Below are positions 1 through 53,464 of a stretch of 64,000 nucleotides of DNA, piece after piece; positions within the stretch are counted from its first letter, which is position 1, and every line of letters starts with the position of its first letter. Source of the stretch: Astropecten irregularis (lineage: Eukaryota > Echinodermata > Asteroidea > Paxillosida > Astropectinidae); contig OZ020254.1 in the NCBI GenBank assembly GCA_963971285.1, positions 310,001 to 374,000 on the forward strand, read 5' to 3'. The position numbers and the translations under genes are program-made. The notes under the pieces were generated by a model. That model did not search any database and was not told the DNA's origin. It saw only the letters and a program-made list of their open reading frames with translations.

Positions 1-3000
1 ATTCTGAACACACTGCGCTGTTCCAGGATCACACCTTGCTGATCCACCCTGTAGCATTGAGACAAATTATTTTACTTTTAAACTTTCAGGGATGTGAGTA
101 GGCACAATAACAAAAAATCTAAAAACACAAGGAAAAAGCTGAATTTTTTTTTGTACAGAGCAGGTGTACAAAAAAGCTGAAATTTTGAGTTCAAACCTAA
201 AAAAAAGAAAAACAGAATTCTATTTAAAATCTGATACAATCATTCTACTTACCAGCAGAATCTCATGTCTTTGATCACATCACGTATGCTGTCAATCAGC
301 ACAGAAACATTCTCAAACTTCAAACCTCGACTGCATAAAAAAAAAAACAATAAAAGTAATGACAACACTGCAGTATGGACAATGTGAATGCACTATGTTT
401 TTTGAAGAAAAACTATCAAAAGGAGTGATCCCAGATGTACTGTTTCTCAGGTTGCAGCATTGCTAATGCTGCGTGCATCTTAAAATGATCCTTGGAATAT
501 AGCGGTATGTGAGTGATTTAATGGCTTCTGACTGCCAAATGAACAAAAGTAATTGACTATTAGGGACACCACCAACATAGCTCAGTTGGTAGAGGGCCAA
601 TCCGGTATTCCGGTGGTCACTGGTTCAAATCCTGCTCCAGCCAATTTGTCTTTGTTCTTTTTTCAATGACTTAATGAACATCCAATGATTTCACAAATTT
701 TTCATCAAAATGTCACTCACCAATAGTCATGAAAGTCAAATGTCACATAGGTGAGCAAAGGACTGTTGAGCAGTAGAACCTGATAGAAAATGGAAAATTA
801 TCAGAAACTTGAAAAAATTAAGCTGATGAAGTCCGCATAATTACAATGGAAGTTGTGGAAAATGACTCAGTCACTTGGTTGTCAATACACTGTAAGTGCA
901 AAGTCAATATGGGAATGAATTCTAAAGTGTGCAACAGTCATGTGCATCACTTTCTGTGGGTGAGTGCTATGATGTGTTTCGGCCATGTTATGCTTGGCTT
1001 TGTATTTTGCACGTATTATCCTGCTGACTAACATCAGAGAAAAAAACCTTAAGATTTCCAATAAATATCCATAGTTTCAATTGAAGTTAAATTCCAGCAA
1101 GTTCAGTAAACATATGATGGCTTCTGACTTGTTTCATTGCAAAAATGTGAACCATCGATTCTCAGAAAATGACTCAATGCCAAACTAAACCTAAGTATTT
1201 CATTTGGAACTGTTTTTTTTAAAGAAGAATTCAAATTTGATTGGCTGCCTGTACCTGTTTCATGAAAGCCTGTCCAATGATATCCTCTCGTCCCATCTGC
1301 TCCACTAAATTGATGACTACGACCCGTCTATAGAGGGTGGCCTGCTCCTCAAAGTGTGCCTCACATGCTGGACGAGTCTCATCTTCATCTGTGAATCAAG
1401 AAAGTTTTGATTTGAATGGAAAATGAAAGATTATGAAAGAAAGTTAACTTTAAGCATTGGGCCTATCTAACTTGAAAAGTAAGTAACTAAAAAATTGTAC
1501 TGTGCATTACATAGACTCATGAGGGCGCTCTCCATAGTAACAAATGGCACATTTTTGGGATGCGGTTGGCTGGTTTGCAAACAAACTTGGCAATATCTTG
1601 AAGTTTTATGATGGAAAAAATGCAAGGCTGTGTTTTCACAGATTTTGGTTTGATTTGAATGGGAAATGAAAGATTATGAAAGAAAGTTGGCTTTAAGCAT
1701 CATTTAAAAACTGTCAAACACAAGAGGACTTAGTTCAAGGATTGTACATTCATCTTAGAGCTATCAAGTTCACTGAACTCAGGCCAGAGCTCTCTGTGGG
1801 AGTAATTCCAGAGTCATACGTACCCTTCTCAATTCTAGGTGGTGGTTTGTACTTGATGCCCGGCTGTGTGAAGAACACTGGCATGGAGCCTCTGACCTGG
1901 ACAAAGGACACTGTGTGTTCCTGGGTCTGGATGATCTGCTCAGTCTCTACGTAGTTGGCACAAGCCCCGGTATCATCGATGCCTCGTCTTCTGTAGCGAG
2001 TCCCTAGAGAGAGTACAATTCAATGTCACGTCAACAATACGGTGAGGTCAATTGTGCAACATGTGAATATTACACTCTTTCAGGAAACTTGAGGTGGTTC
2101 TGAAAGAGCAGCAGGAATGAACTTGACATTGGTTTAATTGGCCGAGCTTTCATTAGGAGAAAGAAACTGTCTGGAGAATACAGCCAATAATGTTGAGTTA
2201 GAACCTTCAACCTTCTTCCAAAGCCCCAGAGGTTGATTTCACGAAGCACTGCGATCGATCGTGACTCGAGTTACAAAGGATAACCCATCGTATCCTACAT
2301 GTACGTAGGTGTGCAATGCATCATAAGTCCTATGATTGATAGTAAGCTACGATGAGTTTGGTGAAATCGACCCCTTGTTAATTTCCCAAAAGGCTATAAT
2401 GACAGTTACTGAGTACTAAAACATTCAATCACTAAATTGCAGTTTCTTGCTTCTTAGGTAAGGAACCAGCCAAATAAAAGCACTTTATCTTTTCTGCTTT
2501 CACGATAAACAATGTAATGGTATTTCATTTTTTCTTAAGCCTAGTTGCATGATTGTAGCCCCCCCCCCCTTTGATAAGTCTATGCTCCACCCCTCCGGAT
2601 ATACGGTACCTGCTCTGTGTCTGCTGCGTCTTGAGATGAGAGTGAGCTTGAATTCAGTGAGTTCCTCTGGAGTCCAGCTGGAGCTCAGTCCATTCTCTCC
2701 TTCCTCCTGGAAGACCATCTTACAATCCCGGATGCTGACATAACCCTGAATGATGGGCACTGTCCAGTGGTCAGCCAACTCTTTGTCCTGTTGATGAACG
2801 GTCAAGGAGGTGATTGTACACGTCCAGTTTTTAATAAGCCTTTCTGCAAGTTACATTTGAGCCATGTCTAGCATCCCATCTTCTCATTTGGTTACAAGCC
2901 TATACAATCACTTGCACAGACCGATCATAAATGAGCGGACACCAACTGAGACAAACAAACTTTCTCTGAGTCAAATTATGGGCATTTATGAAACAGAGGC

Positions 3001-6000
3001 TCAGGCTCTGTCTCAGGCTCCATTCTGAAATAACGGGTATCAAAATAGAGGCTTTTGGCTGCAGTTCTGAGGTAGATTCTCTGGTTTGAAATGGGAGACA
3101 GAGCTTCAGCTTCAATAAAAAACTAAAACCTATATTTTCAGCATATATGGATGTCAGAGCTGGAGCCTGAGCCTGAGCCTCCGTTTTGTAAACGCCCTAT
3201 GAAATCGATGAGATTTCAGGCTATTCACTAGAGCGGGATTCGAACCTGCGACCCCCGGCATACCGTACCGGTCCTCTACCAACTGAGCTATCCAGCCCTA
3301 TGTTGGTGGTGTCCCTAATAGTCAATTATCTTTGTTCCTTTGGCAGTCAGAAGTCATGAAACTACAATAAATAAATTATATAATATCTCCTTGCATGCAT
3401 GGCACTGGGTCTGGGAAACTCGAATGAGTTCTTATTATCAGTTAAAAAAAAGAAACTTATCAGTAAAGCAAATTATCCTCCCTACATAATGTACATAAAC
3501 TGGACAATGCTATCAAACCTGGTCATGCTGGTTGATACTGATAATGCTATCACTACACATGATAGACCAGTCATATTAGTTCAAGCATACGACCTCTTAT
3601 TCAATATTACAGCCACTGGGAGGAATGATTATCAAGTTAGCTGGTAGTTGGCTGTATGCTGGTGTTGACTTTGTGGCATGAATGTGCTCAGTTAATAGCA
3701 AGATGCTGAACTCATCAATAAATCAGGTTAAAAAAATAATAAATATACTCCTATCCATACAATTAAACGGTACAGTGGAAACTGGCAGAGGAGAATAGGG
3801 GCCTGTTTGTTTAATGCACAGGATCACGAAAATTGCAGATCCGGATCCCATTTTAGCGTACCCTGCATAGGAGGTGGATCCCTAAATATCGGATCCTTTG
3901 CGTTTAAACAAACAGGCCAGATGTGTCATTGCAGGATCATATTAACACAACTTAGGCGCTATGGTTACATTACCTGGCAGGCCAAGACATCTTCCAGCAT
4001 GTGGTGATTCCAGAAGAATCTCTCATCCCAGTCACGTTCCTTGCCTCCTGCATTCTGTCGTTGTAGAGTATTAGTCAGGTCCCCAGTCCGGGTGTAAAAG
4101 AACCAGTCTAAAAAACAAATATGAAACAAAATCACATAGAGGCATTTCACAATCATCAGGACAATAATCAAACTAGACACAAATTAGACTAATTTCAAAT
4201 TAAAATTGTAGAGGTCTTCTTTTGGTTTCCATAGCTCAACAATTTCTTAAACAGACTCTTTTGGAGAATCATTTCTTCTTTGCCTCATTTTCCCTCCAAA
4301 AGAAAAGAATCAGAAACAACAGAACGGTCATTTGCTTCATATTCACAAGGCATGACATGCCCAACGAGATGGCAGTTAACCGGGGTTGAATGACATCTGA
4401 TTGTCAAAGCCCCCCGCCCCCTTCCCATTACCAAGATAATCGACCGTATTGGAAATATTTCCATCACAGGGGAGGGTACAGTTCGTCATCAACTGAATAT
4501 GCCAGCCCCCTTGCTAAGAAGGCCTCGGGCTCAAAAACTGAATAGATGAATTATTTGTGCTCAAATTCTATCGATTGCGCCAAAAAAACTAAAATGTAAT
4601 AAAAAACCAAAAATGCACTTCCCCATGGAAATCTAAAAAAAAAGTTTAAGTTTCCAATACACGGACATCTCAGAGCAAATGGAATCTGTAATGAAGTGAA
4701 AATAAAGGATGCCATTTTGAAAGCACGAAAGGCTTCTAAATGTCAACGTTCAACATGTTTCAAATGTCACAGTACGACAGCAATCTTGCAGTTGCAATTG
4801 TCCAAGCAGTCCAATTATTCCTGCTTTCCGCAGCATGCCAAATATCTGCGCCTATTTTAAGGGTAAACAGTCAAATATCAAGCAACAAAACGACTTGTGG
4901 ATGAGGAGCCTGCAGTTATGGTCGTTGAGCCGATCGGATTTCAACAGATGTTGCCAAAATGTCACTGAATCAAAGCCTCTAGTGGCGGAACAGTTTGTGC
5001 CTCAGAAAAGAGAAGTGACAGGATGCAGTTTCTGTTCAAAACCCTCGATATTTGTGGCTATTAATTGTCAATAAGCATTCTCCCTTTCTTCCTTGGGGTT
5101 TCAATTTCCAAAAAGGGGAACCGAGGACTATTAAGTATCGTGCCATTTCTTGAACTGGAACTGAAAATCAATTTTGCCAATACATGTATTGCCATACTAG
5201 AACAGTGAAACTATCATGGCTAGCTACAGCCTTATAATTATTAACAGTAAACAAAATGAACTATATGTTAATCAAACTCCTTACTTGATCCATAAATCAT
5301 GTTCTAACGAGAACCTTAATCACACTAGCAATTTACAAATGAGACTGATAAATTATTATGCAAGGGAATCATGAGTACAATACGTATGAATAATCCCATC
5401 CCCTTAATGCAAAATCAATTTTTAATATCGTTGAGTAGGGCTGAGAATGGATGCTTATTTATCATGAAACATAACAAAATGTAATTGTATCTGCCATGCA
5501 TAATTTGAACATGCACAATATTTCAAAACTAGCTCCGCAGGCTATCCCATCCAAGTGTGCTACATGAATAGCAAACAACCCACGGGTTCGTACCAGAAGA
5601 AATTTGTGATAAATATGCAAACAAAAAAGGATTACGGTTTGGATTCTAACTGGATCACTATTGAAGCCGCTTGAAGGCAGACCACCTGAGGTCACCTTGG
5701 CAACAGTTGTGCATAAATTTGAGTTTGATGAGGACGTATCAAACTTCAATAGCAAGTACAACTGCTAGCAATAAAATCACCACCCAGTCCAACAAATGTG
5801 TTTCTGATGGATGATATCCACAAATCATTCGTTTGACATGTGGAGTGCTATGGTCTAGTGGTCTGGCGTGTTGTACCCAAGATCTTGTTATCTGACTGAC
5901 ACGGCTATCCACCATTATATCCAAGATCTTGTGGTCAATCTACAGATTGTGGGTTCGAATCCAGCCATGGGCTAGTGGTGCTTGCGTCCTTGGGCAAGAT

Positions 6001-9000
6001 GCTTTGTCACATATTGCTTCTCTTCACCCAGGAGTAAATGTGTACCTGTGATCTGCTACCATAAGCAAATAATTTTGGTTAACGGTAACGGATTCCATGA
6101 AATTGGGCCCTGTGCATTTAAGCATGTTAAGAGAGTAAGAGAATAGCATTCCATATTGCAAGCAGTGAACTTCCATCTCATGCACACTGGCAGTGCTGAA
6201 TGTTATAAGCCTGTTAGATGTGAATGCTTCACTGTCTCAATTGGCGGACTGGCGGACTGGCGGCTCGGTAACACAATCACTGCAAACTGCCAACCGGCAT
6301 ACAGCGACAGAATACAACCCAAGACCCACCTGAATCGCTGAACATCTTAAGGAGCTCCTCCGTGATTCGTCTCTCGTGTTTCTCCTTCTCCTTGACCTCT
6401 TTCTACAAGGAGGGCAGCGACGTCAAAAGAACGATGGTACAAAATGAAAAAACAAGAAGAGGGTGGGGTAAAGACAGTGTGAAGTGATGTTTGGCACCAT
6501 GGCAACATTGCCACTCGGTTACACAGATGAGGATGGCAAGCTATAATTCAAGCACTGGTCCACCATGGTTGAATAATTGACTGCAAAATGAACTAGATTC
6601 AAGATGAACTGCTCGTAATTTGTTTCAAATTTTGAGGGTGAAAAAAGGAAAGCAAAGTGGGAAAGAGAGAAAACTAATGAGTATCTGTGCCTCATTTTGA
6701 TGTTACCCAGATTTCCTCCCGTTCCTCTTACTCTGATAATCCTTCCCCAAGATCAAATGCTGATTCCGTTTCATTGACCCTTCTCTATTAAGATGAATTA
6801 CCTACATGTACCCCCATCCTCCCTACCCCCCCCTTTTTGTCCTGATCCTCTCATCCATTTATGTGTATCTTTACTTGCATGTTCTTGTCCCCTTGTCATT
6901 CAGCCTTCAATAAAATCCTGCTAGAATTGAAACTCCAATGTCTGTCCGTCCGTCAATCTGTGTCGAGCTGGGCAATTCCACGGTAACTCGCGTTACAAAT
7001 AATGGGAACATTTTAGGATAATGTACCTATATCTCAGTCATCATTAGGATCTACAGGTTACTTTTTTCACCATGGATAAAGTAGACATAGACTAACAAAA
7101 TTAATCATAAAAGAAAAACATCGGACATACATAATGAGAATCGTGGCTCGTTTAATTTCGGTAACTCGCGTTACGGAAAAAGGACATGGTCAATTTCATG
7201 AAAGCCTATTTTGGCAAAGTCTCCTCATACTAGACAATCTTGATAAAACCTTTCCTACCTTGAATTGATAGTGGGGTATGACTTATAAATTACTAATATA
7301 AAAGTTGAGAAATAATGAACTAGTAAAATGCAGGGAGCATATATGTCGGTAACTCGCGTTACGGTAACTCGCGTTACATCATGTCCATTCAAACAGCTCA
7401 GCACAAATTATGGACATACAAACATTCTGATGACACCTTATCTTGATTTAAGTATTTTGACAGATGCCCTCTTTTGTAGGTTGAATAAAATTAATGTCTA
7501 GAACACTTAATTTACTAATTAACTTCAATTTTCAAAAAGGAATGTGCTAATTAAGAGCTTTGCTCACTCAAATCAGAGTGTCATATTGAACTTAGATATG
7601 TCCTGATTATTTGCACTATCAGTGTGAAAACTGAAAAGAAAAAGGTTTAACTTTGTCAAAAGAAATATATATTCAAATTACACTGAACTTGAAAGCTTTG
7701 AATTGACAAGTAGTTTTGTTATCATTAAAACCAGATGAAATAAATTACAATACTTTAGCCAACAACACTAGTACAGCAGACATACATGTATATACTGTCG
7801 GTAAATGTAATACTTTCCATTCAGTTTTTATTAACATAGAAGTAACACTGTTAACAAATTTGCAAATACATATTTAACTTGCATACAAGAAAATTAAATC
7901 ATGGTAAGTTTTCTTCTTTGGAAATTAACATTATTTCTATTTCAGGAACTTCATGACACACATGAATTATTCAAATACAAATTATGTAAAAAAAAAAGAC
8001 GAAGAAAAAGAAAACAACTACCTTTTTTGAACATGTTCTTGAAATTGACAGAGAAAAGAAATGGGAATCGAGTTTTTAGAATTACATGTAGGCCTACTAC
8101 AAATGTACACACTATGAATAAATGCTATAAAGCTAATAATAATGGAACATGCTTAAAGTTAGAAGGAAACATATTGTGTTCTTCAATAGATGTCCATTTG
8201 CTTGTAATGTTAGTTTGGATTTTACTTTCTAAAACTTTTGTTTGTGATGAACTTGTAGTGACACCTGTTAAATGAGCAATTGCTGGGTGTTGTATCTTGA
8301 GCAGCATGTTCTTCCTAATAGATTGCATCTCTGGGTGTTAGCCATTTCCAGTTTGGCCCAGCTGGCTCCATTTTAAGATACTTTGTAGTCAGTGGGCAAC
8401 TTCACCAGGGTATAGAATTAGAATGTCATTATAATCAACTGCACACCAATCTCCTACGTGTAGGCCTATGGCTGCATTTCCATGTAGGCATCTCTTCATT
8501 GGAAGACTAGATGTCAGTAGAGAGGAGATAGCAGACAATTTCACTATTCACATGCTCTATCAAGTGCATGCAGATGATTCCTGTTGACGGAAACAGAAAA
8601 TAGAACATTTCAGCGCAATAACAGGGGAAGCGTATAATTCACTTTTATTTGATATTTCATAAATATTACAGTTTTTTAATTCTATTTTCATAATAGATAC
8701 AGTACAAATTTATTGAATACACTTACCCTCCAATAATCTTGATGTTGGCAATTCAAGATGATTTTGGGTATTCAGGAGGACCTGTCAAACACTGGTATAC
8801 ACATTCAGAGGTGAAAGTGAGGCCTGGCTTGGTTCAGGATTGCGGCATATATACTCAATGACCTTGTAATGACCTTATTATGCAGATTTCAATTAAAAGG
8901 CAACCCTCTTTTGTTTCAATGCAGCATATAGTGCATAACACTGCATCTGATTGTGTTCACTTCATTCTAGGCCAATTGAGGGTCAAGATTTGCTCATACT

Positions 9001-12000
9001 TGCAGAAACATGTGTTTATAGACGGTAACTCGCGTTACATGGTGGTAACTCGCGTTACATAGTAACTCGCGTTACACTTTTTGATGCTATTTTTTACTTT
9101 GATGGCACTGTTCATTTAGGCAAACATTTTGCTTATATAATCAGGGTGGGATGAATTTAGAAAATTCTGATCCCCAACAAATTACCTCTAATACTTTCTT
9201 CAGAATGAAAAAATATTCACTTTTTTGGTAACTCGCGTTACATGACGCAAGTGCTCAACTTTTTTGTAATGATGAACATTTTTGGAAGATGGTGTAGAAA
9301 TTTCCTCTTAGGAAACTGAAGTAGATCCGATTTGCTTCCCTAAATTGAATTAATGAAAGTCCTAAAAGCATTTTCCCATTAAATGTGTAAAAAATTAATT
9401 TATGCATACATTTCAGCAGTTTCGATGATTGAAAAATCTCTTCTACGTTTGTATCTGTATCTCGGAAAATATTTGACCGATTGATTTAATTCTTTTTGTT
9501 TTTTGAACTTCAACATATGGGTAAAACATAATAACGAATTTACTTGTGGGGGGATGGACTTGAAATTTTAGTCCTATGTCCACCTTCCCGTGGAATTGCC
9601 CAGCTGTCTATTCTGCACCATCTTACCTTCCGGACCTGTGTCGCTGCCTTGATGCTATTCCATGTCTTAGTGAGAGCCTTCTGTTGAGCTGAAGCTGGCT
9701 TCATAATCATCTTGGTCTTCTTCATACCAAAGTGATGCTTGGAACATCTCTGCCGGTCAACACAAACAAGAAAATGATCTTGAAACATGATTATATTCCT
9801 GATCCCGAGAAGAATACTACATGGGCAACCACCACCTGCTTGCATCATACTTGACGTGTATGGGAGACCATCATTACCACAACTTGTACTACCGAAGTCA
9901 TAATACTTGATTACATTTTTGATGAGATTTCTGGCAATTCATGGTGGAGGTAATGTATGACAGGGATGGTGGGCGATGAGAACATGTTCTTTAACTCTTT
10001 TACTCTATTTATTACTCTTTTTATAGTGAACATACATGTACAGTACATGTATGTGGTTCCGAGGAGGACCTTTTGGACTCAAGGTTTTGGAGACTTATAC
10101 TCTGTCCATCATCAGGAGAGTCCAATTATTCAAATGGATTCCACAAGCTATGAAATTCAAATCATAATTCTAATGGCATCTACACTGGTTAACCACACAT
10201 TGCCATTGATACAAAGCTTCTCCAAGTATCACATATGGTGTAATATAATCAGCCCACACCCTTCAAGTAAATTCAGACAGTTGATGCGGGATTACGGTGT
10301 GTACGTGCACACGGTGAGATTGGAGTAATCCAGTGGGACTATAGAGCTGAAAGTAATGTATGGTACGTTATGTATGAACATGTACATGTAAATCATTAGC
10401 TGGTCTTTATGTCAAAGGCTCTCCCCAATATACCGGTACATGGAAGAACAACAGCTACAATGTACAAACGTAGCTTTTCGTGATCATGAATCACATGCAC
10501 AGAATCGTGTGTCCATGACTATGCATACATAGTCATACATGTACATCACAAGTTACATGTACATGTTAATACACATTTGAACTGCATGTACCGTCAAGTT
10601 TAAATAAGGTACCATATGTACCATTAGGCCGAAAAAAAAATTGTTGTGTTGCCCTCAAGTGGAAAAATTAAAATTTTGGGTCGGTCGGTCGATTTTTTAT
10701 TTTTATATTTTTTTTTTTGGCCGACTTTCAAACATTTTAGAATAAATACAGGATGTATGGTCACCAGGGCTTATAAATCAACGGTCTTGGGTCATTTTGA
10801 GGAGACACGCTTTTTAACTGCTTAATCTTACTTTTTGTCATTTTCTGTAAAAAATTGTGAGTTTTTATACTTTAGGACTCCGAAAAAAAGAAAAAAAATC
10901 CCGACTCAAAGGTTTGGCATTTTACGGTCGCTCGCTGAGGGCAACACAACAATTTTTTTTTTTCGGCCTTAGAAAAAGATGTTTTAAGATACTTAACGGT
11001 ATCGAATGGGAGTGTCTGTTATTACTATACTGCCCCTCCCTAGTGCATTACAATAATGTACAATGGAGATAGTAGACTGACTACTGTATGTTTGCTTAAA
11101 TTGTGCATTCTCCTACCATTATCAAAACAACAATTCATAGTGAAAACTATGTGTCCTAGCTACATGTACATGTACATTGTATGCAAATACATGTGTTATA
11201 TGGATTTTGTAATACTGAATCTTGGACAATAACCAAATAAAGGGCTGTTTTTATCCAAAGCTATGTACATGTACATGTACTGTTGTCTTTCAAATAGCCA
11301 GGCCTTCATTTTAATGATGTACTGTATGCATGTGTTCTGTATTATGAATGAGAACAAAAAGATAAAGGGATAACAATGAAACCATTCTACTTGTCCTTGA
11401 ATGAACTTCTTTCCCTCAAACTTGTCCTCAGATGTGTGCTTAGTCTATGGAGTGTATACATGTACAATATGTAAACTTGTACAGGGACAATGGAAAAGAC
11501 AAAGTCTTGTCCTCGGACAGTATGTGAAACACATACATGTATGTGTGGGTATTCATACAGAACATGCCTTTGCTGCCATGTCCTGAATTGTATGTAAACA
11601 AAACAGAACACTACATCAACAGAATTTATCAAACCCGGGACTGACTTCGAGAAACACTTTGAGATACAGTGAATTGAATTGTGACATCTCGCATTGCTTA
11701 GCGATTGAGATTGATTTGCCATATAAGATTAATCTACAATAAGAACTTTGTGAATTCAATAATTAAAATGAGATAGGAGGGTATGACGCGTTTCGATCCA
11801 GGATCTAATTGCTAGGATTGAAACGCGTCATGCCCTTCTAACTCCAAGCATTTTATAAATTTCAGGTCATTATTTTGGCTGATGAGCAGTTTGCAGTAGT
11901 TTATTACTTGTATTTTCTTAATTACCGGTAAGATAAAAAAGATATTTCAACAAAATCACATTTTGAGCTCTCGTACGTTGCTAACAAATCACTGACTATG

Positions 12001-15000: not shown

Positions 15001-18000
15001 TAGGATACTATATCGTTTATGCGTGAAGAAACTGTATGAGATGATTAATGTTAGAAAGATCAAACCATAAATATTTAAAGCTTGGAGTTAGAAAGTCCTG
15101 ATTATTTGATGCGAAGGTTATACCTGTCTAATATCAGAGAGAAGACTTTATAGGCTGGAACCGAACCTACTTTGGGGGATGTCATCAATTTCGAGAATCT
15201 TCGTACAGCACGATGCTTCTAAATTTATTCTCACCGTGAATTAAAGAAACGTCACGTACACAGCGTACTTTGTGACCTTAATTATATTTAACGAGGTCAG
15301 AATGGCTCAAGCACATAACGTGAAAAGTGAAAGTACGGCGTACTTCAGCAACTAATTGAGAACAGAACGGTATCAGTCTCAACTGTCATCTCAGGTTCTT
15401 CAAACTAAATTGACTTTGAATGGTTTTGACCTCATAAACCGTGAGCTCTTATAATGGCATTTAATTTTCCCAAGCAAATCTTACTTACTGTACACTAGTG
15501 GTTTTAAAAAATTAATCTACAGTAAACGACATCCGTGCGTCACAAACTTAAAGTACAATAGATACTGCCTTAAAATTATGTATGCAGTTTACACTGTTAG
15601 GGTGAAATCAATATAAGCTTTCATTTAAATTCAGAGAAAATGGCGTACTACAGAATATACTGTACATGTATGCATACATGCAGTACGCTATACATTATAC
15701 TTACATGTATGTACATGTAACTACCAAAGTGCAACAAAATCACCTCTAAAATAAGAATGAAAAACATCAAAATGCACAAATTCTCTTCATGTACAAATAG
15801 AAACCATTGTATTTTCAAATACGTGAACACGTTTAAAATGGAAAGGTTGTTCCAATTACAGTAATTCAACAAATTCAAATTTGTTTCAGATCTTTAGATG
15901 CAGAACCACTTTCATAATTGAACTAGGAACTTCTACGCTTTACACTAAAGCTAGGAACTTCCCAACTCTCTGTTTTTTAGAAAGTAATACTAACACAGAG
16001 GCCAGCGAAATACTATGAAGCTTGTCTGCTAGCGACATCAATAAATGATGAAATCCTCTATTTATAAGCACGACTACAAAATTCTCCTGGTGACAACTCT
16101 TTTGAGATTCTCTATTTATTTATTAATAATTCTTTTCTGAGAAGGTGTCACTGATGACCGCCACACAAGTCACTTCCAAGCAGCTACGAACAAGGAAAGA
16201 TTCCTTCCTCCGTGTTACAAGCAATGAAGTTCACACAAGATCTGACCCGTTAACAATTGCAAGGCGACGCATTAATTGTTGATGCTAGTCCTCTCATACG
16301 TACATGATTAATTGAGCGTTACCATGGAAATGACACAAATTAACAGGACTGAGGACAGCCAAGATAGATGAGAGGATTATATGAAGGAGATGGAACCCGG
16401 AAACGAAGAGAAAATATAATCAAGAACAAAAATCTGGGGGAGGGGACACGACCAAACTAAAAGGTCAATAATTGAACCTTCAAGCATGACAAGTACATAC
16501 GGGTATATATGTACTGTATCTCTATACATGTTATCAAGTTGAAATACATGTACATGTACATGTACAGGGCATGTAACATTTAAAACTATTTGTCTTAATT
16601 TGTGACAGGCCAGTGCACACAGTCACACTTTGGTATTTTCAGAAATACCAAAGCCTCGTAAGGCCGATGTTATTTTACAGATCACAAGTTTTCTGGGTTA
16701 TGTTTCTAGTTCACTAGTTCATACTTTGCATATATTCTACATGTAAATCTGCTCTAATTATACAATATTACATGTTCTAGGTGAATGGTACAAGTATGCA
16801 CTTGTAAATATGCACTTGTACATATGTAGACACAGTGGCCAACTGGTACATGTACATGTATGCACATGTACAATGCCAGACTCAGATCAATATATGTTCT
16901 TAAACAACAACAAACGTCAGATATTGATTGTGAGTAAGTCGCAGGGATGCCTTCTGTGCATCCATCATAAGTGTGGGAATTTAAGGAGCTGGCAAAATGA
17001 CATTTAATACACAGCAAGACACAATCTATAGGCATACATGGACAAATAGCTTGGATACGTATAGTGAAATAACTACCGGTATAAAGGCGAACAAATTCAA
17101 AAAGTTAAATTCATCATGGTACAGACTATATAAATACATGTAAATACAAAATAACTTTTTGCACTGAATTTTAGTTTTAAATACCAGCATTTTATACTTT
17201 ATTCCAGTTTTTATTACAATATACATTGTATACAAATTTGATTAGTCCTATGCAGGCATCTGAAATTAACTATTGCCCAGAATGCACTTACATACACGTA
17301 TGTACATGTATACGTACATGTACATGTACATCGTCACATTTACAATAAAGGTTAAGTAGTTTAAGACTAGAGTTAATTTGTTTGGCTTGCTGTTTATGGC
17401 TTTGCCATATGTTTACAGTAATTGCATTTACATTTTCAAAATACTGTACCTAAGTACATGTACAGGTACATGTATTTACATGTATAAACAAGGGGAAAAA
17501 GGGGTTATGGTACAATAACCATAACTGAAGCCACATACATGTACATGTACACTACAAATTAAAGTGCAATATGCATGTCCAGTACATTTATTATCATACC
17601 GGTATTCAGTACATACTGTATATATGTAATTACCCCTTTTAGAAAAAACTTACAATCATTACTTCACATTACACATTACACAAACTTCTCATCTTGACCA
17701 GCCACTTTCTAGGTGAGCCAACAAACTCATGCAGTTTAACCATAGAGCTATGATTTAACCAGGCTGGCATAGTAAAGAAGCACTGCCCTGGATCAATCTT
17801 GAACTTGAGTTAACTGTACATGTATGCCAGACCTAGTGTATTTAAATCAAGGCGTGACGTAAATGTCCCATTTTATGTTTATAATAATAATAATAATAAT
17901 AATCAGTTCTTCGAACGCATAATACCATTACATAGTCTATATGCGTATATACATAATTATTGTGGAATTTGACAAAAATATTTCAATTAACTTACTAATC

Positions 18001-21000
18001 ACCCATTAAAAAGGTGAGTTTTCAGCATGGATTTAAATTGACCAAAGTCTGTGGTGTGTCTTATATTATCAGGGAGCTTATTCCATAAAGTTGGTGCCAC
18101 TTTTTCAAAAGCCCTATCACCAAAAGTCTTGGATTTCACACGTATTTCAGAGAGAAGGTTTTTTGATTGTGAGCGTAAGTTTCGACCAGGTTGATAAGGC
18201 TTAATGAGTTCACTTAGATAAGAGGGGGCAATTCCATTAAGACATTTAAACACAAGTGTAATTACTTTAAACTTAATTCGGGATCTTATCGGCAGCCAGT
18301 GGAGAATGCGCAGGAGTGGAGTTATGTCTTCAAATTTCTTTTTACGCATTACAAGCCTTGCGGCTGCATTTTGTATGCGTTGCAGTCGAGTGAGCTGAGA
18401 ATCAGGAACTGCTAAGAGTAGACCATTATTGCCATCCAAATGACTAAATATGAATGCATGTACTAATTTTTCTGTGGTAGACCTGTCCAAAAGGTGTCGA
18501 ATTTTCCCAATCTTGTGTAGACCCAGAGCTGCTGATTTACAAATGTTATTAATATGAGTTTTCATACTAAGGTCATCATGTACAATTACACCAAGGTCAC
18601 GTGCTTTTGAAACTGACTGAACTGAAATATCTGAAACATTAACAGACAATGTTGAAGTAGAATTCTTACGAGATTTAAAGTGTAACACTTCAGTTTTCCC
18701 AATATTTAATTTCAGGCCGTTTCTCAGAGACCAATCATGGATTTTATGTAGACATAATTCAATTTGAGGAATAACTGCAGAAATATTGGTGCACTTTGGT
18801 ACTGAGACATAGATTTGGGTATGTTTATACAGCGCAACGTGAAATAAACAATCATCAACAGGGAACATCAATTTGGATTGAGCCAGCAAAGTTTCCTCTA
18901 AGGTAGAGATCACATGTAACCTAAGAAATTCCTAAGTGCTTTCTTTTTTAAACCAGGTCTCCTCAAGCACTACCACACAAGCCAGTGATACGCAACTTGC
19001 AAGCCAGTGGGTGCAATTTGGGGTTCACTTAACCTGTTAATTTTTTTTCATCATATTTGCAATATCTTGCTGGAATTTTAATAAGTAACATTTCCATCTT
19101 TTTTGTGATTTTCATTATTATGAATTTTGTATTGATCTTTTTTTCTTCAGTTGTTTGTCTGTTGTTGTGCCTGTCCTCAGTCTCTCCATGTTGTGGGCCT
19201 GTGTGCCTGTTCAGGGTTTCCCTCTTGCAATGCATGTCTTTTGAATGTTCTCTGTGCAATAAAGGTAATAAAATACAGGCAGAGGTGTGCAAGTACGCAC
19301 TGTGCAGGGAGGCAGAATACAGCCTCTTTGCATCCTCCATGGGGAATAGTAAACAAGAGAAAGAGAAGGGCGGGGCTTCTCTTTGCATGAATGCTCCCCA
19401 GACTGCCATCCAGAATCCACCCACAGGTGAAATGTTGCTCAAGCACTACCTTGTCCTCCCCCCTATCTCCTGAGTAAATGAGTGCTAGATTCATTAATGT
19501 TTCAGGGACCCTGGATGACTGTGAGGATGCTCCTTTCAGCCTGTCTCCTGTCGGTGCCAGAATCTTCCACCTGGGCCGACTTCCACTCTCAGAGAGGAAT
19601 TTCATTAAATTAAGATGCCAAGGTGACTGCAAGGTCCCCTCCAGGGATGGACCGTTTGTCAGAAGAAAGAGAGGGGGTTGGGGGAGGTTGTTGGATGGAG
19701 TCTAGCAATTGGCAGAGGAAGAGCAGATGGTCCTTTTGATTCTGTTTTATTTCATTTTATTTTAAAGTTTTATCGGCAATAAAATGTAAGATCTACTGGT
19801 GCATTATGGGCCTTTTTGTTTCATGAACGCGATCAGTGATCCGGCGCTCAAAAGCTGCTCTGGATCGCATGTTAGCGAATCCTGCTTGCGACATGGATTT
19901 GTAAGATCAAATATGGAAACCAATATCTGCGGCGAAACTAACAGGCTCTAGATGCAAGTGAATATTTGGATAGATTGTCAAGTGCAAATTTTGTCACACA
20001 ACGTGAAACTTGCATGAGACAGATCGGTAAAGATGAAGAATTTTTAAACTAATAACAGATAAGTACTTAATAAAAAAAAAATTCAAATCTTCAGAATCTT
20101 TTTTTAAATGAGGGAACTGGACTACCAGACAAGTGGCCTCCCACTCAAGCCCTTGAATTTCATTAAAGTTGGTCTGTGCTGTATGACTGAACTAGGCCCT
20201 CGAGGGACTCTTTGTCAAAGGAGACTGGTGGACGGAGTCTACAGTGTAACTGTAAGCACAGGATAAGGTCTCTGATTCCATTCTTTTTTCCATTTTTTTA
20301 GGGGGGGGGGGGCGAATTGAGTACGTGACCCAAGTGATTTGTACAATGCGATCATTGCATTTTCTATGTGGATCGGTTTGCGGAAACACCATATAATAAT
20401 CGTTCGTACTTTTGCACTTCTATATCGTTCGCACTTCTCGCAATTAGGTCTCTTGCATTTTCCTCTTTAAAATTGACAGAAATGCACATCACGTACACGT
20501 AATCCGCCGGCTTTGCTAAAAGCCAAGAACTCACATTGGCCGGCACTTCCTGTTTTGCCATTCAGACACTGTTCCCGTCTCTTAAAAAATTGAGCAGGCC
20601 CTTGACGGGTTCGTTCATGAACAGCACAAGTAATTGTTCATTAATTTTAATTTAAACCAAATGACAAAGTAGAATGTCTGTGAACATTTCATGTTAAAGG
20701 GAAATGGGGCATTTTACAATGTTCATTTTTTAGATAGATGACGAATTAAAACTGTTTGGGGTTTTTCATGAGACAGAACTGTACTTGAAACTGCACATAG
20801 TGCACAAAATCCCTCTTAACGAAACTCTTAAAGGTACAGTACAGGATCTGTAACATACCCAAACAGAAATGCTTTGTCAGCTGTTAGCGAGAAATCCTTA
20901 CATAGTTTGCAAAGTGCAAAACTGAAATTCTGACATGGTTTGACATCGATGCTGCATGTTTAAAATTTGGGCAAAAATCCATGTTCCCTGTTCATTTCAA

Positions 21001-50592: not shown

Positions 50593-53464
50593 GTAAGTGT
50601 TTCATTTCTAGGGCTAGGTCTACACAAAATTGAATAAGTTAGTGCAGTGTTGGCCCCACTAGGCACTAGTCAGCTAGTGTGGCACGAATTTTCGCTCAAG
50701 CCGCTCCATCCTTAGGCTTTGCCACACGTCCAACCGCCTGATTTACGAGGGATATGTTCGGCTCTGGTGCGCACCCTCTTGTCATCACATTTCACGCTCT
50801 TTCTACATACACAAATGTTCCTTAGTGTCTCATCTTCCCTATGGTATATTATTCGAATGAATTCAATCTTGTATTCATCTATTTTTCGGTCATTCACTGG
50901 TGCGCGAAAAATGATTTTGTGCACAAACGTATATATGGGAGTACGACCCAGCAACACGATCACCCCCCCCCCCCCCCCAGGTCTGAGGACGTGTCTACAC
51001 TACTGGTTTATCGCAAGTAGCATTTCACCAAGAGAGTGCACTTGCGTAAAGCATTGTGAGATACACCTGGGTCAAACTGCAAAATCACGAACACAGCTCA
51101 TGCACAAACATAATTTCACTCGGACTGTCCGAACATAAGCGGTTGGTGGCATCTACCGACCCTTGTACATCACATAATTACTAGCATTCGCTATTTGGTA
51201 TTTTGCTGAGGTCTGCTTACTGTACTGTACATGCAGTATATTTACTGCGATGCATCCAAGTACGTTAACTTCCAGTGATTGCCTCAAATTAACAGTTAAC
51301 AGTTAACATCCAGGTGGGCAGACATAAGTGAATTTGTGTATTATTATACAGGCTGAGTAAGCACAGTCGTCATAGTATTATCCATCTGCTTGCTGTTTGT
51401 TGTATATGCAGCCGTCATTCATTAGGTTAGGTACCGTACGTGCCTCTAGTCCTAGAGGAAGCCCACAGACTTACTTAGTCTTAAGAGTCTCATATTGTTT
51501 GCTTTGAGGCTTTTTGCTTTGGAGAGGGAGATGGATCCAGTACCAAGTATTGTAAATTTAAGCTCAAGGGACTAAATTAAAAAAAGTTAGGCAGGGACGG
51601 ATGAAATGATGGTTCACGTTCTAGACCTCAAGACAGATTTACTGTTCCTTCAGCAAGAAAACATGGCCAGTCTCTTTCATCATCTAGACAAGTTTTAAAA
51701 TTAGATCTTACGTATGTCACCAATTGGGGGAACGACTGGCTCGTCACCTTCAATGAAAAGAAAACTCACCTGTTATCTGTTTCAAGATCTACATCTAAAT
51801 CATCTATTCCTACCTTGTCTATGAACTCTACATCTCTTCAGGAAGTTAGTGACATCAGGTTACTTGGTCTCGACATCACCAATAAACTCTCCTGGGACAA
51901 GTACATCAGCGGTATTGCCAAAAGGGCCTCTCAACGTGTAGGTTGTCTATACCGTGCACGGAAATGCCTTTCCCCCCCTGTCATTCTGTACTTATACAAG
52001 ACGACAATCCGCCCTGTTATGGAGTACTGTTGTCACATCTGGTCCGGTGCTCCAGCTTGTCACCTTTCTCTGTTGGACAGAATACAGCGTCGAGTTGTTA
52101 ACCTGGTGGGCCAAGAATTGTCATCTTCCTTGGAACCCCTCTCACATCGTCGCAATGTATCTTCACTGAGCCTGTTTTACAGATACTATCACGGCATGTG
52201 TTCCAATGGTCTTTCGTTGGTCGTCCCTGTTGACCGTCCCTCACAACGAACCACTCGCCTCTCAGTCAAATCCCATCCTCATACAGTCGTGACTCCCAAA
52301 TGCAGGTCCAAGGGGTATGCTATGAGTTTCTTTCCACGTACTGCTTCACTCTGGAACTCCTTACCTGCATCCTGTTTCCCTGCTGTATATAATTTGTCTA
52401 AGTTCAAGTGCAATGTCAATAGGCTTCTGTTATCCTAATTCTGTGCACTTTCTTTTCCTTTCTCTTTCTTTTTTAGCCCTCACCTTGAGTGGCCTTTGTG
52501 CCTTGTGTTGGGCGACTTCCATAAAAAAAATAAAAAAAAAAGATAAATAGGTTTTTCCCTTCGTGAAATGTTGAAGCACCTGGATGCTCTGTACCTTCTG
52601 GTTTCCACAACTGACAAGTGACTGCAAACCTACTCACTGGGGAATACTGTAGATGTCTCACCAGCTTTAATCAAGTCAAATGATGGGACATGGAAAGATT
52701 CTACAGTAATCTTGGATTTTGCAGGATGCGTGTTGGGATGATTGCCCTTTTTGCAGGCCCCATTGAAATTCCCAGGGGTGGCACTGTATCTGACAAATGT
52801 ACCTTAAAACATGTAAAACACTATTAAAGGTCTTTTGAATTTCTTCGACTATGATTGAATTAATTGTCATGTATAATTTTATATTTTAAATGAAAAGAAC
52901 AATTAATATATTCGGAGCTGAACTTACAAATAAGTTATAATAAATTCATCTTTTAGAATCTAAAAATGTAGTGATCGTCTGAGATCAAGGGGTGAAAGAC
53001 TAAAGAATGCTACTCTTGAGAAAGAATTCCAGCCATGAAAATCCAAAATGCAAAGTGCATAATCAGTGATTCACATTGTTCACATTTATTGAGCCCGAAA
53101 GGGCATGATTTATAACATGAACTGTGATAAGTGGTTTGATGTTATTTCTAAGACTGTACACTATGCAGCGTCTAATGCCTGAGTTGTGATAGTCAAGAGC
53201 TTGAAGAGGATTGATGTGAGAGATTTCACGCTCAGTCTGCTTCTGACAGATGTTGAAGTCCCATGTTAATATTTTCTACATGAGTAGATCACTGAGACAT
53301 GAATGGCAGGGATGTACTCATCAAACAGAAAGAAGTCACAGATTCATGATGTTAAAACAGTTCTCTTCTTTTTCTAACAATATTTCAAGAACATCTTGAT
53401 CTTCACAACTCTCTTCTATCCCTTGAACGTGACTATAAGCGTCTTTGTTTTCTTCTCATTTCAG
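50593..53464 (+). other. Presumed 5' intron of RBM41
   Basis: Between the candidate noncoding exon donor and the acceptor before the first coding exon. It contains a poly-C run (50,963-50,979) and the Jockey-like LINE end. No coding exon seen. Confidence 0.4.
51630..52550 (+). mobile_element. Jockey-like LINE, 3' end
   Basis: The frame through 51,815-52,438, open back to about 51,660, reads WGNDWLVTFNEKKTHLLSVS, LLGLDITNKLSWDKYI, RPVMEYCCHIWSGAP, LLDRIQRRVVNLVG and FFPRTASLWNSLP, the C-terminal region of a non-LTR reverse transcriptase. It ends in an A-rich tail near 52,525-52,550. 5'-truncated. It lies in the intron upstream of the first RBM41 coding exon. Confidence 0.87.

Follow-up and report, generated by a model that had tools for sequence, protein, structure and literature searches.

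The stretch of DNA analysed here, called the window below, comprises 64,000 nucleotides of Astropecten irregularis (contig OZ020254.1, positions 310,001 to 374,000; assembly GCA_963971285.1). At positions 6970-9601 we found a 2,632-bp element bounded by 14-bp terminal inverted repeats (TIRs) and flanked by a 4-bp target-site duplication (Table 1). It contains eight exact copies of the 14-mer GTAACTCGCGTTAC, four near each end, all on the + strand and spanning positions 6983-9241, just as a sequence-only reading of the window had described them. The chance expectation for this 14-mer in the window, at two mismatches or fewer, is 0.11. The 14-mer is near-palindromic (GTAAC-TCGC-GTTAC) and differs from its own reverse complement at two of 14 positions; thus, its orientation rests on two bases per site. 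The same reading had also given the element perfect 18-bp inverted ends. The inverted pair at 6966 and 9605 is indeed perfect over 18 bp, but only 14 bp belong to the TIR. The outer four bases vary among copies (ATTT, AGCA, GTGA, GCCA and others) and are repeated on both sides, and an 18-bp TIR was rejected. In the window copy they are AGCT, the target-site duplication, which mimics four extra TIR bases because it is palindromic. The window copy has no transposase gene apart from a decayed C-terminal piece, which is 39% identical to the C-terminal frame of a longer relative (L069) and contains internal stops. We read it as a non-autonomous cut-and-paste DNA transposon from which most of the gene seen in longer relatives is missing.

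Table 1. Positions of the terminal repeats, 14-bp sites and gene remnant of the element, numbered from the first nucleotide of the window
Feature	Position	Strand	Remark
Target-site duplication AGCT, left	6966-6969		4-mer here differs in other copies
14-bp TIR GGGCAATTCCACGG	6970-6983	+	3′ end relative to the transposase gene of coding relatives
Site 8	6983-6996	+	Adjoins the TIR, one G common to both
Site 7	7161-7174	+	
Site 6	7349-7362	+	
Site 5	7364-7377	+	Doublet with site 6, 15 bp apart
Decayed transposase C-terminal remnant	8243-8569	-	tblastn E = 1e-16; element positions 1274-1600
Site 4	9025-9038	+	
Site 3	9045-9058	+	
Site 2	9062-9075	+	
Site 1	9228-9241	+	360 bp from the 5′ tip; no site beside the 5′ TIR
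14-bp TIR	9588-9601	-	5′ end relative to the transposase gene
Target-site duplication AGCT, right	9602-9605		

We searched a single genome of 476 Mb, to which all genome counts refer. The exact 14-mer was present 270 times and its reversed control was absent, while the exact TIR 14-mer was present 195 times; many more copies of the 14-mer/TIR pair exist besides the one in the window. Among the first 100 listed of the 270 matches to the 14-mer, 96 were judged by eye to lie in element-like clusters and four were single. Neither outcome that would have overturned the sequence-only reading, a pair lacking a second copy or a 14-mer equally dense elsewhere, was obtained. A DNA search with the element gave 45 matches, and 28 near-full copies were aligned (26 full-length copies together with L065 and L066, which were split by gaps). 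A copy on C19 (L067/L068), a 471-bp piece on C18 and small fragments stayed outside the alignment, and the copy on C10 was treated separately as L069. All of the 28 copies had a 14-bp TIR with 0-2 mismatches at each end. Aligning them defined a 4-bp target duplication, which was exact in 19 copies, had one or two mismatches in seven and was absent from two. The sequence-only reading was therefore right that this is a DNA transposon, multi-copy and with TIRs and target duplications. Its suggestion of a fairly young copy was only partly true. The window copy shares 97.2% identity with its closest relative and on average 94% with the other copies, and the perfect repeats also reflect selection.

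Among the 28 copies, 214 of the 224 sites were exact and 20 copies had all eight sites exact; none was exact in the reverse sense. Counted in alignment cells, which are not independent because the copies are related, differences from the consensus were found in 8 of 3,085 cells of the 14-mers and 12 of 756 cells of the non-site TIR, compared with 3,077 of 68,902 elsewhere. In the 30-bp flanks of the sites, 324 of 7,795 cells differed. For CpG cells, the numbers were 6 of 936 within sites versus 112 of 1,056 elsewhere. Each of the eight site differences was private to one copy. Shared differences were present in none of the 3,085 site cells versus 2,570 of 68,902 elsewhere, and a variant common to two or more copies was present in none of the 112 site columns versus 391 of 2,486 other columns (Fisher P = 1.5e-8). 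No site change has been passed on in these copies, a pattern to be expected if transposition of a copy depends on its sites. The telling point is the joint conservation of all eight sites, not that of any single window. At the level of sequence comparison, these results support the view that the 14-mers behave as cis-acting transposition sites.

The spacing of the sites was compared in the 20 copies with eight exact sites. In 16 of them, the intervals were identical (178, 188 and 15 bp in one group and 20, 17 and 166 bp in the other), and in the other four one interval was off by 1 bp. The interior between the two groups varied from 1,562 to 1,700 bp. Outside low-complexity sequence, we counted 14 distinct indels in the 852 bp of the arms versus 138 in the 1,522 bp of the interior, and variable columns numbered 238 and 567, respectively. 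Substitutions amounted to 2.6% in the left arm, 4.9% in the interior and 4.3% each in the right block and the right end. The right block and right end together are a cleaner case for a constraint on spacing than the left arm.

Longer relatives coding for a transposase, which had been suggested as worth looking for, do exist. L069 on C10 is 4,814 bp long and has seven exact sites and one with two mismatches; it contains a 590-residue frame that ends in a stop, followed by one of 112 residues with a match to the C-terminus of the L070 protein. The two ends of the window copy match those of L069 at 76% and 87%. L070 on C11 encodes 690 residues without a stop, and the frame of L071 on C1 diverges from that of L070 near the C-terminus. 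Protein identity to L070 was 60% for L069 and 49% for L071. The target duplications were TTAT for L069 and ATAT for both L070 and L071. A protein search of the genome with the transposase gave at least 75 matches. Structure modelling predicted an RNase-H-like DDD core in the transposase of the coding relatives. Thus, multi-copy TIRs, a duplication of fixed length and relatives with three acidic residues in a predicted RNase-H fold were all found, as in cut-and-paste DDE/D transposons. Searching viral contigs, prokaryote genome contigs and phage records with the transposase, and plasmids with the element DNA, gave nothing useful.

Other relatives of the transposase were seen in passing. Seven transposase fragments at C3:403423-427175, matching P0001 at 47%, had equal numbers of stops and a period of about 3,841 bp; they are probably a tandem array of a decayed relative. 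Further relatives with 25-37% identity, several of them with long open frames, were located at, for example, C19:4464815, C15:16422988 and C18:17672461.

The site array is also found in the coding relatives. Counted from the 5′ tip in the orientation of the transposase, the sites of the consensus of the aligned copies (family A) lie at 361, 527, 544 and 564 and at 2218, 2233, 2421 and 2599. Those of L069 lie at 361, 527, 544 and 564 and at 4406, 4421, 4609 and 4788, those of L070 (family B) at 365, 530, 547 and 567 and at 3482, 3497, 3684 and 3861, and those of L071 (family C) at 363, 528, 544 and 562 and at 3501, 3516, 3702 and 3881. In each of the four, 13 bp separate site 8 from the 3′ tip. 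The number, order and direction of sites are common to families A, B and C, and their intervals agree within 2 bp. Outside the sites, the aligned ends of the three families were 44-51% identical, and shuffled ends had a mean of 44-46%. In the register of this grid and without gaps, the 40-bp flanks of the sites showed 36-43% identity and the sites themselves 61-89%.

The 14-mer is GTAACGCGAGTTAC in family A, GTAACGTAACTAAC in family B (all eight exact in L070) and GTAACGCGTGTTAC in family C (four exact and four with one mismatch in L071). A fourth family, D, is known from positions and individual matches rather than from whole elements, and its 14-mer is GTAACGTAAGTTAC. Between families A and B the 14-mer differs at positions 7, 8, 10 and 12, and between A and C at position 9. 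The 14-mer of D differs from that of A at 7 and 8 and from that of B at 10 and 12, so that the four form a similarity chain C-A-D-B with steps of one, two and two bases. Exact matches in the genome numbered 45 for B (reversed control 21), 27 for C (control 3) and 424 for D (control 18); given the control for B, lone B matches mean little. The grid intervals were kept, each time on one strand, in two B copies (C27:14078012-14080221 with eight exact sites and C11:1809637-1811861 with seven) and in D copies on C1, C8, C9 and C10. A doublet pattern, which presupposes the frame GTAAC-N5-T-N-AC, had 124 matches on both strands together and four in the reversed control. Counted by eye, 29 of the 31 doublets whose letters were listed had two identical halves (16 of A, 8 of D, 3 of C and 2 of B). 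For 43 of the 47 doublets listed on the contigs compared (C1-C19), a site adjoining the TIR lay on the expected side, 374-387 bp away; in 41 cases the distance was 379-383 bp. As a separate observation, sites 3 and 8 were both inexact in the D copies on C1, C9 and C10, which is perhaps a shared subfamily variant.

A survey of miniature inverted-repeat transposable elements (MITEs) covered 30 TIR loci, seven of them of family A. Counted by eye, 16 loci had a partner TIR that closed an element of 185-238 bp, and nine of these 16 had an exact 4-bp duplication. Seven of the 16 MITEs had a readable site at both ends; the two sites faced each other in five, pointed the same way in L018 and were undecidable in L023. 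Among the first 100 listed of the 424 matches to the D 14-mer, seven +/- pairs 99-160 bp apart were recognized by eye. Mirrored sites do exist in this clan of elements. We also noted two near-identical MITE loci, L034 and L035 (C8, 19.99 and 20.04 Mb), about 45 kb apart and identical in the flanks that were read. This likeness suggests either a local duplication or a repeat made by the assembly.

Taken together, we consider it probable that the element is a cut-and-paste DDE transposon whose transposase binds an array of directional, rigidly spaced and co-evolving sites. The patterns of conservation suggest the transposase as the binder of the 14-mers; it would recognize a directional 14-bp site, eight per element. 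At the 3′ end, one site would abut the TIR, the next would stand 178 bp inward and a doublet would follow after a further 188 bp. At the 5′ end, the outermost site would stand alone 360 bp from the tip, with a second one 166 bp further in and two more after steps of 17 and 20 bp. With all sites pointing one way and a different layout at each end, the array could distinguish the 5′ from the 3′ end and might permit only the correct 5′-3′ synapse. Bridging of the sites into a single multi-subunit assembly would precede cleavage at the 14-bp TIRs, and this assembly would fix the spacing. The specificity of the transposase of each family would fix the 14-mer, and if that specificity changed, all eight sites would follow. 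We infer the assembly, the role in end discrimination and this cause of the concerted change. Tracking of transposase specificity seems the simplest cause of the site replacement, and gene conversion over 14 bp a weaker one. More tentatively, the rigid eight-site grid of at least four families, with the 14-mer changed in unison, might represent a natural series of orthogonal transposase-site pairs whose specificity shifted while the eight-fold array was kept. The intervals of 166-188 bp, which seem to resemble the nucleosome repeat, might at the same time put sites in nucleosome linkers and make chromatin a part of the synaptic complex; we doubt this combined proposal more than we favour it.

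The group would be a natural test case for the joint evolution of an enzyme and its many DNA sites. If the reading is true, changes in an enzyme have been matched more than once, within one genome and on an unaltered scaffold, by changes in eight dispersed, near-identical sites. It could then be tested how multi-site recognition changes its specificity without an inactive intermediate, whether such a change stops related transposons from mobilizing each other and what a fixed array pointing all one way does in the pairing of two different ends. The families would also be a source of transposase-site pairs between which cross-reaction may be absent.

Several results weigh against a binding transposase with a rigid array. 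Private changes in the sites were only modestly depleted (8 observed and 22.7 expected, 2.8-fold). This depletion is explicable by ordinary selection through repeated transposition, and a separate protection of the sites after insertion was rejected. Among 2,411 windows of 14 bp, 6.5% were as conserved as the least conserved site. The left arm is low in substitutions, and the deficit of indels may thus partly reflect general constraint. Between families, five of the six end alignments, sites included, exceeded the shuffled mean by 0.04-0.09 and one did not, so the ends of the families are not wholly unrelated. The deviating sites of L069 and L071 indicate either that perfect sites are not strictly needed or that these copies are decaying, and the frame of L069, with a stop before its second part, may be defective. 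Among short MITEs with a related TIR, none had more than two readable sites; an array of eight is then dispensable for some members of the clan, provided that the same kind of transposase mobilizes these MITEs. The transposase model had a mean predicted local distance difference test (pLDDT) score of 56.5 and was of low confidence outside the core. No transposase family was found when the transposase sequence was compared with Pfam, PHROGs and PDB. Foldseek searches of PDB and BFVD returned nothing at E ≤ 1e-3. That the fold list names no eukaryotic transposase family carries no evidential weight.

The 14-mers might instead bind a host protein, either a transcription factor or a chromatin protein, that drives expression of the transposase or shields the element. 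A near-palindromic site resembles those of many host factors, and an unrelated short repeat (window 2231-2372), L001 and L015 all contain a similar palindrome, GTAAC-N4-GTTAC. Nevertheless, copies without the gene keep their sites, including those past the 3′ end of the gene. A host factor would also predict one site for all families, whereas the sites differ between families within one genome. We regard this explanation as unlikely.

The likeness of sites within a family could also have arisen by gene conversion or repeat-driven mutation, without any tracking of transposase specificity. This would explain why the sites are alike at eight places within a family and unlike between families, and local duplication or conversion could give the identical halves of the doublets. 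However, only about 14-15 bp are common between sites that have unlike flanks and lie up to several kilobases apart, conversion tracts usually need longer homology, and a copied site does not bring the grid with it. Such an origin seems quite improbable. Finally, the element could be an ordinary non-autonomous transposon with subterminal repeats, its grid being due to common descent and its site differences to drift. The families have TIRs, 4-bp duplications and homologous transposases in common, and most of their end alignments score slightly above shuffled ones, as common descent would have it. But drift predicts that sites diverge like their flanks, and instead the same changes, at positions 7, 8, 10 and 12 between A and B, are found from site to site; we give this explanation very little credence.

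We claim no superfamily for the element, and the 4-bp duplications exclude several by rule. Duplications are 7-9 bp in hAT, P and MuDR elements (8 bp in hAT), TA in Tc1/mariner, and 2-3 bp in EnSpm/CACTA, which has CACTA-like tips. These candidates were rejected, as the duplications here are 4 bp long and are not TA, and the tips are GGGCA. In maize Ac/Ds and En/Spm, many short subterminal repeats are proposed or known transposase sites, and they vary in number, spacing and orientation; here all three are fixed across the families examined. Kolobok and piggyBac duplicate only TTAA (PMC9587614), and they were rejected because only one of the 19 exact duplications was TTAA. For Sola2, PMC3627910 describes 4-bp target duplications, AT-rich (AWWT; ATAT, AAAT, ATTT), and TIRs of 12-21 bp. 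The duplication length and the TIR length here agree with this description, but AWWT was found in only five of the 19 exact duplications. The Pfam search gave the transposase no match, at its cut-off, that would point to Sola2 or to Academ and Ginger, which have superfamily-specific transposases of their own.

Better-studied arrays offer partial parallels. In the Hermes (hAT) study (PMC10368747), the left-end repeats STR2-STR7 are antisense and the right-end repeats STR1-STR5 sense, a repeat pair forms a quasi-palindrome, shifting two repeats by 1 bp from the TIR impairs cleavage, and the subterminal repeats are bound through BED domains. Like Hermes, the element has several subterminal sites arranged differently at its two ends. 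Hermes is thus a precedent for rigid spacing and asymmetric binding, and the one-way orientation, which the sequence-only reading had thought unusual, may have a counterpart there. The Hermes repeats, which have an AAGT motif, are short, and the first 55 bp of each end contain five of them. Here the sites are 14 bp long, eight in number and identical within a copy; they are spread over about 580 and 410 bp of the two ends, spaced 15-188 bp apart, and the target duplication measures 4 bp. The TnsB sites of Tn7 and of I-F3 CRISPR-associated transposons (CASTs) are another precedent for asymmetric arrays. Unlike the present elements, these are bacterial, and CAST has 3 + 3 sites of 20 bp and Tn7 has 3 + 4 (PMC13370975). 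No accessory gene was noticed in L070 or L071, where no search was aimed at such genes. A literature text search for the 14-mer and the TIR on either strand found no match. Literature searches on subterminal repeats, co-evolution and new superfamilies, mostly at the level of search listings, turned up no description of a fixed grid in which related families differ in the site sequence at all positions.

Other repeats were seen in the window. Two frames, at 17999-18913 (-) and 51815-52438 (+), resembled by eye, from their motifs, the C-terminal pieces of non-long-terminal-repeat (non-LTR) reverse transcriptases; Pfam gave no match to either at E ≤ 0.001. Positions 2231-2372 hold a short interspersed repeat that is 78-82% like stretches in L001, L015 and L017. 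It has inverted ends of the type GGTYRATTTCAC and an inner GTAAC-N4-GTTAC-like palindrome, GTGACTCGAGTTAC in the window. The whole resembles a MITE that is unrelated but has a palindrome of similar type, and this repeat explains at least one of the single 14-mers lying outside family A, that of L001.

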